Assembly (NCBI RefSeq): GCF_019195455.1
Contig: NZ_JAIMBW010000001.1
Location: 3,748,001 to 3,812,000 of the forward strand
Source: Gymnodinialimonas phycosphaerae
Lineage (GTDB): Bacteria; Pseudomonadota; Alphaproteobacteria; Rhodobacterales; Rhodobacteraceae
DNA: 64,000 nucleotides
Direction: 5' to 3'
Positions within the stretch are counted from its first letter, which is position 1; each line of letters starts with the position of its first letter. Positions 3,094-38,760 of the stretch are shown piece after piece. The notes under the pieces are model-generated. The model saw only the letters and a list, made by a program, of their open reading frames with translations. It was not told the DNA's origin and searched no databases. A program made the translations under genes and the position numbers.

Positions 3094-3126
3094 TTGCGGC
3101 GTGAAAGGCGCGTAAGCGGCGGATAA

Positions 3127-3178
3127 CCCCTCCACAACGGCTTCCTGGCGTGGGGGAAATATTAATGGAGCACTCCCC
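3127..3178 (+). promoter_or_regulatory. SAM/SAH riboswitch in the metK leader
   Basis: The leader directly before metK matches the SAM/SAH riboswitch class of Rhodobacterales. A stem CCTCCAC/GTGGGGG (3129-3135 with 3150-3156) encloses the loop AACGGCTTCCTGGC, followed by a short A/T linker and ATGGAGCA (3164-3171). The CTTCC of the loop can pair with GGAG to form the pseudoknot. GGAG is also the metK Shine-Dalgarno sequence, so ligand binding would hide it and repress translation. Class and gene position agree with the published family; the pairing was done by eye. Confidence 0.9.
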
Positions 3179-8235: not shown

Positions 8236-8727
8236 ATGACCGGCACACGCGCAATCAAGGGCCTCGCGCTGTTGACGGGCATTCTTTACAGCGGCTTGGC
8301 CTGGCTTTGGTATGTGGAGCTGATCCCCGGCGCCGGGGGCCTCCACCCTTTCGACTCGCGCTTTTTCGGCTACACGGCGGCGGAAGGGCAGGCCTTTCTA
8401 AGCGCCCTCTCGGATGAGGCGCGGCAGGTCTACTTGGCTGATGTGCGTCTGCTCGATACGATCTTCCCGATCTGTTTGGCGGCGCTTCTGTCATGGCTGA
8501 TGCTGCGCCGCGCGTCCGGACCCTGGAGGGCGCTGGCGATCCTGCCCGTCGCCTATCTGGCGACGGATCTGTTGGAGAACGCGCGCGTGGCCGCGATCCT
8601 GCTGCACGCGGCGCCGACGGACGAGATGATTGTCGCGGCCAGTCAGGCAACGGTGGCGAAATATGGATTTTTGATAATCAGCGCGATTGCACTGGGGGCC
8701 ATATTTGTGACAACCAAGCGTCCATGA
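8236..8727 (+). CDS. Small integral membrane protein, unknown family
   Basis: 163-aa product with about four hydrophobic segments (roughly 7-27, 80-97, 105-120, 140-158). No family recognised. The chosen ATG ([13 protein letters not shown]) begins directly before the first membrane segment; upstream codons look non-coding. Its stop overlaps the cmk start as ATGA (8724-8727), so translation of cmk is probably coupled to it. It lies where aroA and cmk are normally adjacent, downstream of two decayed genes. Confidence 0.65.
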
Positions 8728-9338
8728 GGTTTACAGTCGCCATTGATGGGCCCGCCGCGGCGGGCAAGGGAACGATCGGGCGCGCGGTCGCCGATCACTT
8801 CGGGTTTGCACATCTGGATACGGGGCTTTTGTACCGTGCCGTGGGGGCGCGCATGTTGCGGGGCGAGCGGGCCGAAGATGCCGCCCTTGCCCTGACGCCC
8901 GAGGATCTGGCCGATCCCGACGCCCTGCGCGCGCCCGATGTGGCGCAGGCCGCCTCCAAGGTCGCGGTGATCCCCGAGGTGCGCGATGCCCTGCTGGCGT
9001 TCCAGCGCGCCTTTGCCCACCGCATCGGCGGCGCGGTTCTGGACGGGCGCGACATCGGCACCGTCATCTGCCCCCGTGCCGAGGTGAAGCTGTTCGTGAC
9101 CGCCAGCGCCGAAGTGCGCGCGAAGCGCCGCTTGGACGAGCTGATGGGTCGCGGGCTTGAGGCCGAATACGACACCGTTCTGGCCGATGTCCGCGCCCGC
9201 GATGCCCGCGACACGGAACGCGCCACGGCGCCGATGATCGCCGCCGACGATGCCCTGACGCTCGACACCAGCGAAATGTCTGCGGAGGCTGCGATTGCGG
9301 CCGCGATTGCCGCCGTTCAGTCCAGAAAAAATGCGTGA
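8724..9338 (+). CDS. cmk: Cytidylate kinase
   Basis: Phosphorylates CMP and dCMP. The 204-aa product has the P-loop [17 protein letters not shown] at the N-terminus, the substrate-site motif [10 protein letters not shown] and [14 protein letters not shown]. Length is typical. The ATG is fixed by the P-loop position and overlaps the preceding stop as ATGA. In many proteobacteria rpsA follows directly; here a KAP NTPase gene intervenes. Confidence 0.95.
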
Positions 9339-9552: not shown

Positions 9553-10956
9553 ATGACTAAGAAAACCTTTGATGACGACCACCTGGGGTTTGAGGCCCTG
9601 GGAGAGACCTTCACCAAGCTGGTGCAGTCGATGGAGGGGCCGAAGGTCATCTCCATCGAGGCTGGGTTCGGACGGGGCAAGACGTTCTTTCGCAAGCGTT
9701 GGGCCGGGCAATTGCGCGAGGCGGGCGAGGTCGTGGTGGAGATTGACGCGCGGCAGTCGGACCACTCGGGCGATCCGGTGGTGACGTTCATCGGGGCGTT
9801 GGTGGGGGCATTGGGGGAGCCTGATGGCGCGCGGGCCAAAAAATTCTGGGACGAAACCAAGAAGTGGGGCGGGGTTGCAGCGCGGTCCGTTGGCGGCATG
9901 GTCATGGGTAAGGCCGTGGACGGCGTGATCGAGGCGGCGGACGGCATTCTAACTGATGATGACACGCCGGACTTGTTGGACGATCTGGTCGAGGGCGCGG
10001 GCGAAGGGTTGTCGAAAGCCGCCAAGAAGATGATCGGCGCGCAATTGGCGGCAGAGAAGGCGCGGCAGGAGTTGCCCGCGCAGCTCAAGGGCCTGCTGGA
10101 GGCTTTGACCGAGGGGAAACCCAATAAGCGCGTGGTGATCCTGATTGACGAATTGGACCGCTGCCACCCCGACTATGCGATTCAGTTATTGGAATCGATG
10201 AAGCTGGTGTTCGATGAGAAGGGCTATGTCTTCGTGCTCATGGTGAACGCCGAGCATCTGGAGCGCATCGCGGCGCATCGGTTTGTGGGGTGGCACGACG
10301 AGAAGGACGACGCGGCGCGGGAGCCGTATTTGGACAAGTTCGTGGACATGCGGCTGACGTTGCCCGCGCCGGAGGAGAAGATTGCCGAGGCGGCACGGGC
10401 CTTTGCGATGGAGTTGCCGAAGCCGGACGTACCGTTCGGCGAGGGGCCGGAGTTTACGATTGAGCGTGCGGCTCAGGTGGCGGCGGATCTCGCGCCACTG
10501 AGCGGGCTGTCGATGCGGCAGATCAAGGGGGTGTTGTTGCGGGTGGAATTGGCGGTGCGGGCGTATCAGGGGTTGCCAGTGGATGTGCCGTTGTTGGTTT
10601 GGTTGGGGTTTGTGAACGCTGTTGATGGACCACGATTTGCAGCCAACGAAGCCCTCCTTCGCGCACGTATCCATCCTGATATTGGCGAAGAAATTGAGAG
10701 GAATGTTCGGCAGGCTGCCGTTGGTGAAGACTGGGAAAACGATGTGGAGAAACATATCCGTCCCGCGATGGAACATTTCGTTGCACGTCATTGCATGGAA
10801 TTGAGCGAACTATCCGAACAAAGATATCGCCTTCCTGCACAACTTCGGCTTGGCGATTTGCTCAACACGACTGCAATAGTGTTTAGCCTCGCCCCTTGGT
10901 ACATCCCCAGGCACCAATCCATGCTCGATCACGTCCATAGCCTCGTCGCTGGCTAG
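9553..10956 (+). CDS. KAP-family P-loop NTPase
   Basis: 467-aa predicted NTPase of the KAP family (named after Kidins220/ARMS and the phage-exclusion protein PifA). Walker A is GFGRGKTF at residues 38-45 and Walker B is VVILIDELD at 194-202, followed by RCHPDYAIQLLESMK as in other KAP proteins. The long insert between the two Walker motifs is typical of the family, although here it is only weakly hydrophobic. The last 110 codons (from about 10620) are clearly less GC-rich than the rest. It sits alone between cmk and rpsA with its own AT-rich upstream region, which suggests an inserted accessory gene. Function unknown; phage defence is only one possibility. Confidence 0.8.
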   Translation: MTKKTFDDDHLGFEALGETFTKLVQSMEGPKVISIEAGFGRGKTFFRKRWAGQLREAGEVVVEIDARQSDHSGDPVVTFIGALVGALGEPDGARAKKFWDETKKWGGVAARSVGGMVMGKAVDGVIEAADGILTDDDTPDLLDDLVEGAGEGLSKAAKKMIGAQLAAEKARQELPAQLKGLLEALTEGKPNKRVVILIDELDRCHPDYAIQLLESMKLVFDEKGYVFVLMVNAEHLERIAAHRFVGWHDEKDDAAREPYLDKFVDMRLTLPAPEEKIAEAARAFAMELPKPDVPFGEGPEFTIERAAQVAADLAPLSGLSMRQIKGVLLRVELAVRAYQGLPVDVPLLVWLGFVNAVDGPRFAANEALLRARIHPDIGEEIERNVRQAAVGEDWENDVEKHIRPAMEHFVARHCMELSELSEQRYRLPAQLRLGDLLNTTAIVFSLAPWYIPRHQSMLDHVHSLVAG

Positions 10957-11319
10957 CTCACCCGGACCGGAACCAAGGCCCTTGGGCCGCCGGTCCATCC
11001 ATTGCCTGTCAGGCGATTTGGCTTTGTCAAATCTGCCGTTAGGGGCCGTCTCGCCCCCCTCGGGGCCCCTCTCGGCATCTTTTGCGCTGCAAAAGAGCCT
11101 GCCGGGCAACGGGCGATTTTGCTAGCGTCTCGCGTTGCCGTCCGGGCGGAGTGTGTTTGGCTGCCATAAAGTGCCTAGCGACTTGGCGTGGATCGCCGCC
11201 CCGCGCGACGACGCTGGACCGGCTACGCGAGAGTCCCGCGCCCCTTGCAAACAAGGAAAACCCCGGCTATACGCGCGCCAGCCCAAGGCGGTGTATAAAC
11301 CGGGGGCGGAGGATCAGGC

Positions 11320-11350
11320 AGGTGGGATGCGTTCCCACCTTCTTTCGTTT
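11320..11350 (+). terminator. Terminator-like hairpin in the rpsA leader
   Basis: AGGTGGGA (11320-11327) pairs perfectly with TCCCACCT (11333-11340) across the loop TGCGT, followed by the T-rich TCTTTCGTTT. It may end transcription coming from the KAP gene side or act as an attenuator upstream of rpsA; sequence cannot separate the two. Confidence 0.5.
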
Positions 11351-11375
11351 TCGGCGGCACCACAGGGGATTTCCC

Positions 11376-11405
11376 GCGCTCAAGTAGCCCGAAGGGCGGT
11401 AGCGC
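11376..11405 (+). repeat. Tandem leader hairpin, unit 1
   Basis: Outer stem GCGCT/AGCGC (11376-11380 with 11401-11405), internal loop CAAGTA opposite GGT, inner stem GCCC/GGGC (11387-11390 with 11394-11397) capped by GAA. The same architecture recurs at 11422-11451 with compensatory changes in both stems. Confidence 0.75.
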
Positions 11406-11421
11406 AATAAGACGACCAACC

Positions 11422-11451
11422 GCCCTCAAGTAGCGCGAAGCGCGGTAGGGC
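11422..11451 (+). repeat. Tandem leader hairpin, unit 2
   Basis: Outer stem GCCCT/AGGGC (11422-11426 with 11447-11451), internal loop CAAGTA opposite GGT, inner stem GCGC/GCGC (11433-11436 with 11440-11443) capped by GAA. Loops are identical to unit 1, while one pair in each stem is flipped (G-C to C-G outside, C-G to G-C inside). It ends 66 bases before the rpsA start. Confidence 0.75.
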
Positions 11452-11517
11452 AAATAAACCAAGACCGGCGGAGACAACCGCGCGGCCAGCATCAAATTGA
11501 TAGGAAACAGACGCCAC

Positions 11518-13194
11518 ATGGCAACAGCATCAATGGAGGAATTCGAAGCCCTCCTTAACGAAAGCTTCGAAATCGACACGCCGGACGAAGGCTCGGTGGT
11601 CATGGGCAAGGTTATCGCAATCGAAGCGGGCCAAGCCATCATCGACGTCGGCTACAAGATGGAAGGCCGTGTCGAGCTTAAAGAATTTGCGAATCCCGGC
11701 GAAGCACCCAACATCAATGTGGGTGACCAGGTCGAAGTGTTCTTGCGCAACGTCGAGAACGCCCGGGGCGAGGCCGTGCTGTCGCACGAAATGGCCCGCC
11801 GCGAAGCCGCCTGGGACCGTCTGGAGAAGGCCTATGCCGCAGAAGACCGTGTCGAAGGCGCGATCTTTGGCCGCGTGAAGGGTGGTTTCACCGTGGATCT
11901 GGGTGGCGCGGTTGCGTTCTTGCCGGGTTCGCAGGTCGATGTCCGTCCCGTCCGCGATGCGGGTCCGCTGATGGGCCTCAAGCAGCCGTTCCAGATCCTG
12001 AAGATGGACCGTCGCCGGGGCAACATCGTTGTCTCGCGCCGTGCGATCCTTGAAGAGTCCCGTGCCGAGCAGCGCGCCGAGGTGATCGGCAAGCTGAACG
12101 AGGGCGACGTCGTGGACGGCGTGGTCAAGAACATCACTGAGTACGGCGCCTTCGTCGACCTGGGCGGTGTGGACGGCCTGCTGCACGTGACCGACATGGC
12201 ATGGCGCCGCGTCAACGACCCCAAGGAGATCCTGACCATTGGCGAGACCGTCAAGGTGCAGGTGATCAAGGTCAACAAAGAGACGCACCGCATCAGCCTT
12301 GGCATGAAGCAGTTGCAGGACGACCCGTGGGATGCCGTCGCGGCCAAGTACGCGCTGGATACCGTCCACACGGGCCGCGTGACGAACATCACCGATTACG
12401 GTGCGTTTGTTGAGCTGGAAGCCGGTGTTGAGGGCCTCGTGCACGTGTCCGAGATGTCCTGGACCAAGAAGAACGTACATCCGGGCAAGATCGTTTCCAC
12501 TTCGCAGGAAGTTGAAGTGATGGTGCTGGAGATCGACACCGTGAAGCGTCGCGTCTCGCTTGGCCTCAAGCAAACCCAGCGCAACCCCTGGGAAGTGTTC
12601 GCCGAGAGCCATCCCGAGGGCACGCAGGTTGAAGGTGAAGTCAAGAACATCACCGAGTTTGGTCTGTTCGTGGGTCTTGAAGGCGAGATCGACGGCATGG
12701 TCCACCTGTCCGACCTGACGTGGGAAGGCCGTGGCGAAGACATGATCGGTGAGTTCCGCAAGGGCGACATCGTGAAGGCCGTCGTCACCGAGGTCGACAC
12801 CGACAAGGAGCGCATTTCGCTGTCCATCAAGGCAGTTGACGGCGATCCCTTCGGCGAGACCATCGAAGGCGTCAAGCGCGGCTCGATCATCACCGTCGAA
12901 GTGACGGCGATCGAAGAGGGCGGCATCGAGGTGGATTACGAAGGCATGAAGTCCTTCATCCGTCGTTCCGACCTGTCGCGTGACCGGTCCGAGCAGCGCC
13001 CCGAGCGTTTCCAGGTTGGCGACAAGCTGGACGTCCGCGTCACCAACATCGACGCCAAGTCCCGCCGTCTGGGTCTGTCGATCAAGGCGCGTGAGATCGC
13101 GGAAGAGAAAGAGGCCGTGGAACAGTTCGGCTCCTCTGACTCCGGTGCATCGCTGGGCGATATCCTTGGCGCGGCGCTGAAGCAGGACGACTGA
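11518..13194 (+). CDS. rpsA: 30S ribosomal protein S1
   Basis: S1 binds mRNA leaders on the 30S subunit. The 558-aa product contains six S1 repeats with recurrent signatures such as ITEYGAFVDLGGVDGLLHVTD, which fits the family length of about 557. The ATG of MATASMEEFE was chosen because it aligns with other alphaproteobacterial S1 proteins; the short upstream in-frame extension lies in the leader. The Shine-Dalgarno sequence is weak (AGGAAA about 10 bases upstream), as is common for S1. A strong terminator follows. ihfB, often found downstream of rpsA in proteobacteria, is absent here. Confidence 0.97.
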   Translation: MATASMEEFEALLNESFEIDTPDEGSVVMGKVIAIEAGQAIIDVGYKMEGRVELKEFANPGEAPNINVGDQVEVFLRNVENARGEAVLSHEMARREAAWDRLEKAYAAEDRVEGAIFGRVKGGFTVDLGGAVAFLPGSQVDVRPVRDAGPLMGLKQPFQILKMDRRRGNIVVSRRAILEESRAEQRAEVIGKLNEGDVVDGVVKNITEYGAFVDLGGVDGLLHVTDMAWRRVNDPKEILTIGETVKVQVIKVNKETHRISLGMKQLQDDPWDAVAAKYALDTVHTGRVTNITDYGAFVELEAGVEGLVHVSEMSWTKKNVHPGKIVSTSQEVEVMVLEIDTVKRRVSLGLKQTQRNPWEVFAESHPEGTQVEGEVKNITEFGLFVGLEGEIDGMVHLSDLTWEGRGEDMIGEFRKGDIVKAVVTEVDTDKERISLSIKAVDGDPFGETIEGVKRGSIITVEVTAIEEGGIEVDYEGMKSFIRRSDLSRDRSEQRPERFQVGDKLDVRVTNIDAKSRRLGLSIKAREIAEEKEAVEQFGSSDSGASLGDILGAALKQDD

Positions 13195-38576: not shown

Positions 38577-38615
38577 GCAAAACAACCCCCGTGGGCGAAA
38601 CTCGCTGACGGGGGG
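38577..38615 (-). terminator. Probable terminator between the secreted protein gene and ffh
   Basis: On the minus strand CCCCCGT (38614-38608) pairs with ACGGGGG (38592-38586), followed by TTGTTTTGC. It would end transcription from the gene at 38761-39267 before ffh. Confidence 0.5.
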
Positions 38616-38760
38616 CGATCCTACGAACGCGCGCGGGACCGGGAAGCTTGGCTTTCCGGCTATTGTGGCGGGGGATAGGGGCAAACGCGGGGGGAGTCAA
38701 TCATTCGGACGCCCGGCCTATCGGGTCTGCGGGCGGTCCATCCGGTTCGGGGACGCACCC

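Follow-up and report, generated by a model that had tools for sequence, protein, structure and literature searches.

The two adjacent hairpins that precede the rpsA gene in the window (the whole 64,000-nt stretch of Gymnodinialimonas phycosphaerae DNA analysed here) were found to be one site of many in a dispersed hairpin family, which is patchily distributed across other Alphaproteobacteria. The pair is probably a tandem occurrence of an alphaproteobacterial repeat that is read as a DNA hairpin and is a passenger at rpsA.

Results

Hairpin pair and rpsA leader

Copy 1 has the arrangement GCGCT-CAAGTA-GCCC-GAA-GGGC-GGT-AGCGC, in which an outer stem (GCGCT/AGCGC) is followed by the internal loop CAAGTA/GGT, an inner stem (GCCC/GGGC) and the cap GAA, and copy 2 reads GCCCT-CAAGTA-GCGC-GAA-GCGC-GGT-AGGGC, with GCCCT/AGGGC as the outer stem and GCGC/GCGC as the inner one. 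By direct reading, both stems differ between the copies at their third pair, which in the outer stem is G-C (copy 1) or C-G (copy 2) and in the inner stem C-G (copy 1) or G-C (copy 2); the loops do not differ. This bears out the initial annotation, which had described tandem 30-nt hairpins with a common CAAGTA/GGT loop and GAA cap and one pair flipped per stem; its distance of 66 bases to the S1 start is also correct, 66 nt lying between copy 2 and the rpsA ATG (11518). The pattern TCAAGTAGNNCGAAGNNCGGTA, allowing up to 3 mismatches, occurs in the window only at these two sites, with 0.00 occurrences expected from 100 shuffles (Table 1). Folded alone, each 30-mer forms the hairpin, with an RNA energy of -12 kcal/mol for both. 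The minimum-energy fold of the 191-nt leader, in which parts of the two copies pair with each other, is no stabler than those of shuffled sequences (z -0.74) and is uninformative.

Table 1 Features of the rpsA leader in the window and loci of the tRNA-linked composite in other stretches
Feature	Position or locus	Strand	Evidence
Conserved rpsA leader structure, outside the repeat family	11268..11351	+	10-leader alignment, model R2, terminator scan
Hairpin copy 1	11376..11405	+	sequence; model R1, 55.6 bits
A-rich tail of copy 1, AATAAGACGA	11406..11415	+	positional A enrichment across the family
Hairpin copy 2	11422..11451	+	sequence; model R1, 55.0 bits
A-rich tail of copy 2, AAATAAACCA	11452..11461	+	positional A enrichment across the family
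rpsA, ribosomal protein S1	11518..13194	+	ORF; protein start common to relatives
tRNA-linked composite, some loci repeated, some with diverged module	L029, L030, L037, L038, L147, L214, L025, L046, L079, L109, L158		

The conserved structure upstream of the pair includes a -10-like TATACG, a small stem and a terminator-like hairpin (11320-11340) with a T-rich tail. In an alignment of 10 of the 13 genus leaders, near-identical ones being left out, 4 of its 15 predicted pairs were doubly changed, and the covariation term was small. A covariance model of this structure (R2), itself built from rpsA leaders, matched once each in 11 genomes out of 41 from the family, and 10 of these matches lie upstream of rpsA; the other 30 genomes scored below the cut-off, and the weakest match was not at rpsA. 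The structure is a candidate attenuator and, on these predictions, would be a better candidate than the hairpin pair for rpsA-specific control.

The reading frame downstream of the pair is taken to be rpsA, following the initial annotation. A gene for a KAP-family P-loop NTPase (9553-10956) lies between it and the reading frame at 8493-9338, presumably cmk. Elsewhere in the window, a SAM/SAH riboswitch (3126-3172) and an ffh sRNA (38578-38629) scored above the Rfam gathering threshold.

Copy number and distribution of the family

A covariance model of the hairpin unit (R1), built from 62 copies, gave 54 matches in the genome of the window when 150 candidates were scored per genome, and matches were obtained in 12 of the 13 genomes of the genus, the 12 other than that of the window carrying 0 (G296) to 38 each. 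With strict filters and 30 candidates scored per genome, 12 of 240 genomes sampled from the class were positive, that of the window among them. A search of this kind had been proposed in the initial annotation as a check for clustering at rpsA; the matches are scattered well beyond rpsA, and the paired substitutions that it foresaw are present.

The strict loop pattern matched 49 times in the 13 genus genomes, against 5 matches for the reversed control, with nine of the genomes positive and the matches often in direct tandem. A looser pattern, run over 295 genomes of the family, located seven copies resembling the hairpin in the genome that contains the window; on the same strand of that genome it matched 6 times and its reversed control 6 times, so that it served as a lead only. 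The exact-pattern scan covered at least 120 stretches, of which 80 were listed, and took in metagenome-assembled genomes labelled only as bacterium; among the matches listed were Brevundimonas, Erythrobacter and allies, Methyloceanibacter, Roseibium/Labrenzia, Roseicyclus, Rhodospirillales and others. One of these matches is in a metagenome-assembled genome labelled Bordetella (L107), where the copy precedes a Brevundimonas-like rpmI.

With one 31-nt variant as the query, a plasmid search matched a single Roseibium record, and a phage search gave one partial match, to a Thermus phage at an E value of 0.2. On a 16-kb second contig, a four-copy array (L235 3939-4070, G000:C2) extends over the end of a gene for a replication initiator (RPA), so that the repeat is present on an apparent plasmid too.

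Anatomy and covariation of the unit

The repeated unit consists of the 30-nt two-stem hairpin, with the asymmetric internal loop TCAAGTAG / CGGTAG, and an A-rich tail of about 10 nt, which together account for the array period of about 40 nt. Among 193 copies standing last in their array, A is enriched at set positions over about 10 nt and then stops sharply; in each context examined, the tail is found, be the next feature a start codon, the end of a gene or a tRNA, and also where no feature follows within 30 nt. The loop, TCAAG[T/C]AG / CGGTAG, is nearly invariant, and most of it was the search key for the copies (CAAG[TC]A...G[GT]TAG), so that its invariance is partly imposed; the stems were not selected in this way.

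Stem letters vary freely among copies while pairing is retained. In 62 distinct copies, a subset chosen by the authors from the 112 distinct copies of 31 nt, 95.7% of the pair cells are standard, compared with 75.1% in shuffles (0 of 500 reach this value), and the covariation score is 0.451, compared with 0.111 for shuffled copies and at most 0.067 with slid partners. For all 112 copies, 956 of 1008 pair cells (94.8%) are standard. The stem cells of the same 112 copies include 14 G-T and 20 A-C cells; as G-T does not exceed A-C, neither strand is favoured. RNA-level constraint usually favours the wobble pairs of one strand over those of the other. Of the initial proposal of a covarying conserved RNA structure, the structure and its strong paired substitutions are upheld.

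Genomic placement and orientation

For 39 of the 54 matches, forming 21 clusters, the surrounding sequence was fetched and classed with script-made gene calls; a further four matches in these stretches, weak ones with E values of 0.005 to 0.09, were not included. All 21 clusters are intergenic, two of them reaching into the last codons of a gene. Eleven contain more than one copy, and the copies of a cluster, grouped by strand, are in direct repeat. Relative to their two neighbours, 9 clusters are oriented opposite/opposite, 7 same/same, 3 same/opposite and 2 opposite/same. Among the genes beside them are gap, pth, pyrB, pdxJ, a glutamine synthetase-like gene, polysaccharide genes and a plasmid replication gene. 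A tRNA 3' end is found at a distance of 8-59 nt from 7 of the 21 clusters, and one cluster is separated from the end of gap by 6 nt.

In a wider set, some clusters overlap called genes, and 97 of 119 clusters were counted for orientation: 36 are same/same, 26 opposite/opposite, 22 same/opposite and 13 opposite/same. Although the 3' side is close to gene boundaries in the window's genome, the distance to boundaries is not significant in the wider set (Wilcoxon p 0.83), and no claim is made from it. A mobile gene common to the surroundings of the copies was considered as well; clustering of 608 called proteins near copies showed host families, which are taken to be rpmI/rplT, ffh/rpsP, fabI and similar, and no transposase was recognised on reading through the protein clusters shown.

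Conservation at rpsA and rpmI

Copies are present in 6 of the 13 rpsA leaders of the genus, two each in G000, G297 and G301, one in G302 and short forms in G300 and G305, and none was seen in the other 7. Some copies are degenerate, and those of G297 are changed in the loop; the variable zone that contains the copies is bounded on one side by the conserved structure and on the other by a ribosome-binding region that is also conserved. G301 has two copies and G302 one, with 3' flanks that are 98% alike, which shows gain or loss of a unit of about 40 nt. Identity of the hairpin exceeded that of the rest of the zone in all six pairs among four genus genomes: 55/59 versus 29/46 for G000-G297, 53/60 versus 35/44 for G000-G301, 27/30 versus 24/34 for G000-G302, 48/60 versus 29/43 for G297-G301, 25/30 versus 19/34 for G297-G302 and, with a small difference, 27/30 versus 27/34 for G301-G302. 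The stem type of orthologous copies is kept in some pairs and swapped in others. In a check for a miniature inverted-repeat element (MITE), the arms are inverted repeats, and the leaders with and without copies, compared by eye, are too diverged here to show a duplication.

A second orthologous site was found ahead of rpmI (L35) in Brevundimonas. Out of 61 genomes matched, 60 leaders were fetched and 59 read; 29 carry a full-length hairpin by pattern, of which 27 distinct ones were compared, and in the other 30 the full-length form is absent, with a shorter-stem form in at least four. Mean pairwise identity of the 27 is 0.86 for the hairpin, 0.35 for the 5' flank and 0.52 for the 3' flank; within the hairpin it is 0.84 for stem columns and 0.89 for loop and cap, two of the stem columns and some of the loop having been fixed by the search pattern. 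Two inner-stem pairs alternate between C-G and T-A (12/7 and 13/6) with few broken cells, and the wobble cells are 2 G-T and 0 A-C. The covariation score of 0.212 is above all 500 shuffles, and a slide of +3 also gives 0.212; pairs changed on both sides number 2, against 1.8 in shuffles (423 of 500 reach it), which is no excess. The hairpin is retained in some rpmI lineages, whereas others have a decayed or shortened form or none. Sequence comparison at the two orthologous sites, rpsA and rpmI, shows a hairpin that is better conserved than its flanks in the lineages that retain it.

Copies linked to tRNA genes

Several copies form part of a composite that, on the tRNA strand, runs from the CCA end of the tRNA through a T-rich tail and the hairpin to a module that contains GTTC and ends in CACCA (Table 1). 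Some copies are orthologous, so that counts over the 258 copies are not independent; within them, CACCA occurs at most 24 nt upstream of the hairpin in 26 (control 2.3%), and a downstream CCA-ended module occurs in 10 (control 0.5%), all ten being among the 26. In G305, near-identical composites follow tRNA-Leu(tag), tRNA-Leu(gag) and a partial tRNA-Thr(tgt), and in G304 the composite follows Leu(tag) and Thr(tgt), the module after Leu(gag) being diverged. Counted over the genus, 3 of the 12 Leu(tag) loci read and 2 of 13 full Thr(tgt) genes are followed by an intact hairpin.

In G305, the partial tRNA-Thr (L329, G305:C3, near 61432) lies about 12 kb from the full one (G305:C3:49524-49599). 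The fragment would be consistent with an island integrated at the tRNA end, with the hairpin beside its far end. It is conceivable, if rather unlikely, that the family represents an undescribed mobile hairpin class, read as DNA by a non-RAYT protein, and that its composite form, some 78 nt long, spreads by being copied to CCA ends in various tRNA genes.

Relation to known repeats and mobilising enzymes

No Rfam family matched the hairpins at or above its gathering threshold, and at E values up to 10 a single sub-threshold match was obtained, elsewhere in the stretch; the first impression that the hairpins belong to no recognised class held. A literature search by topic and by stretches of the sequence itself turned up no paper judged to describe the element.

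A RAYT was considered as mobiliser and rejected, since PF01797 (Y1 transposase) had no match in the window's genome; this profile scored above its cut-off in 1 of the 13 genus genomes and in 1 of the 19 carrier genomes searched. A reverse transcriptase was likewise rejected, none being found in the window's genome; 4 of the 13 genus genomes have one. In a genus mate (L065), a RAYT-like gene (PF01797 at 1501-1740) has GTAGACCGGGC-type palindromes within its own reading frame, which are a different repeat from the hairpin family.

Several features of the family recall known small repeats. Some of its copies follow a tRNA gene and repeat jointly with a module resembling a tRNA 3' end, as do the tRNA-linked tyrT/rtT units of E. 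coli; compared by description, the CCA-ended module pattern is found in only 10 of 258 copies, and the window pair has no adjoining tRNA. Rickettsia palindromic elements and other short repeats are likewise small, palindromic and alphaproteobacterial, but appear to differ in loop, size and tail. Ribosomal-protein leader elements, such as the E. coli rpsA leader, have the same position, in the 5' leader; the hairpin family, in contrast, is not gene-specific, and the gene-linked structure of this leader lies elsewhere, at 11268-11351.

The closest likeness is to the REP/RAYT system, whose repeats, as described by Nunvar et al. 2010 (PMC2817692), are short interspersed extragenic palindromes, usually present in over 100 copies and in arrays of alternating orientation, with sequences that start with GTAG or similar. 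Some enterobacterial REPs also appear, on the authors' reading of the sequences tabulated in that source, to have two stems around an internal loop. By comparison, the hairpin family lacks a 5' GTAG foot, beginning instead with the outer stem and having GTAG inside the internal loop, and it shows 54 matches, direct tandem arrays, an A-rich tail and no RAYT in the window's genome. Judged from sequence features, the family matches none on file and seems REP-like but distinct.

Discussion

Stems that vary yet stay paired, an asymmetric loop that is conserved and the lack of a preferred orientation would fit best with a hairpin that is read as DNA. The hairpin may form on single-stranded or extruded DNA and may be recognised in that form by a protein that depends on stem pairing as well as on the internal loop; such recognition would leave the stem letters free, allow either orientation to genes and give no preference for G-T over A-C. 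By analogy with REP sequences, the unit could be an intergenic binding site, spread by a DNA-processing enzyme and served by a different partner protein, although the searches for such a protein or a mobilising enzyme yielded neither. At rpsA, it is most likely a passenger between the attenuator-like structure of the leader and the ribosome binding site.

The evidence that hairpins in the rpsA and rpmI leaders are kept above their flanks would also suit an element acting at the RNA level, namely a site at which a protein or sRNA binds numerous mRNAs and tRNA precursors, with effects on stability or translation, so that the copies would form a regulon and not a repeat. The double changes in the rpmI inner stem, where G-U is the only wobble, and the sites near rpmI, near tRNA genes and near a gene presumed to be rpsP point the same way. 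The mixed orientation of the 21 placed clusters, the G-T cells that do not outnumber A-C over the 112 copies and the varying presence at a given site within the genus argue against it, and an RNA-level role is considered unlikely. Template switching between arms during replication, known as quasipalindrome correction, could keep the arms of a neutral repeat complementary and so produce covariation without function, in keeping with the high Watson-Crick pairing, the lack of wobble preference and the local likeness of stems inside arrays. Such a process leaves unexplained why the rpmI hairpin is conserved so far above its flanks (stem 0.84 and loop/cap 0.89, against 0.35 for the 5' flank), nor does it account for the recurrence of the loop in distant orders, for which the loop also served as search key; a neutral origin is judged improbable.

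Two narrower explanations fare worse. A transcription terminator or 3'-end protector would account for the clusters just past tRNA genes and gap; in these copies, however, an A-rich tail follows the hairpin, or a T-rich one precedes it on the other strand, in place of a hairpin followed by a T-run, the terminator scan lists other sites and not these hairpins, and several copies lie between two genes of the same strand, after the stop codon of one and before the start codon of the other, which makes this role very improbable. The initial annotation had proposed an rpsA-specific two-site leader element for autoregulation by S1. The position of the pair just ahead of the rpsA start and the hairpin conservation above flanks in the six genus pairs would suit such an element, yet 54 matches genome-wide, beside many unrelated genes, and copies in only 6 of 13 rpsA leaders, with none seen in 7, speak against it, and the proposal is scarcely tenable.

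The reading as a DNA hairpin remains the preferred one. The case also shows that covariation between two neighbouring hairpins may stem from a dispersed repeat family and does not have to imply a gene-specific switch. A loop-conserved and structure-constrained repeat that occurs in several alphaproteobacterial groups and for which no Rfam family or mobilising enzyme was found points to a hairpin-reading protein, and the tRNA-linked composite offers a testable case of a repeat spreading to tRNA 3' ends.
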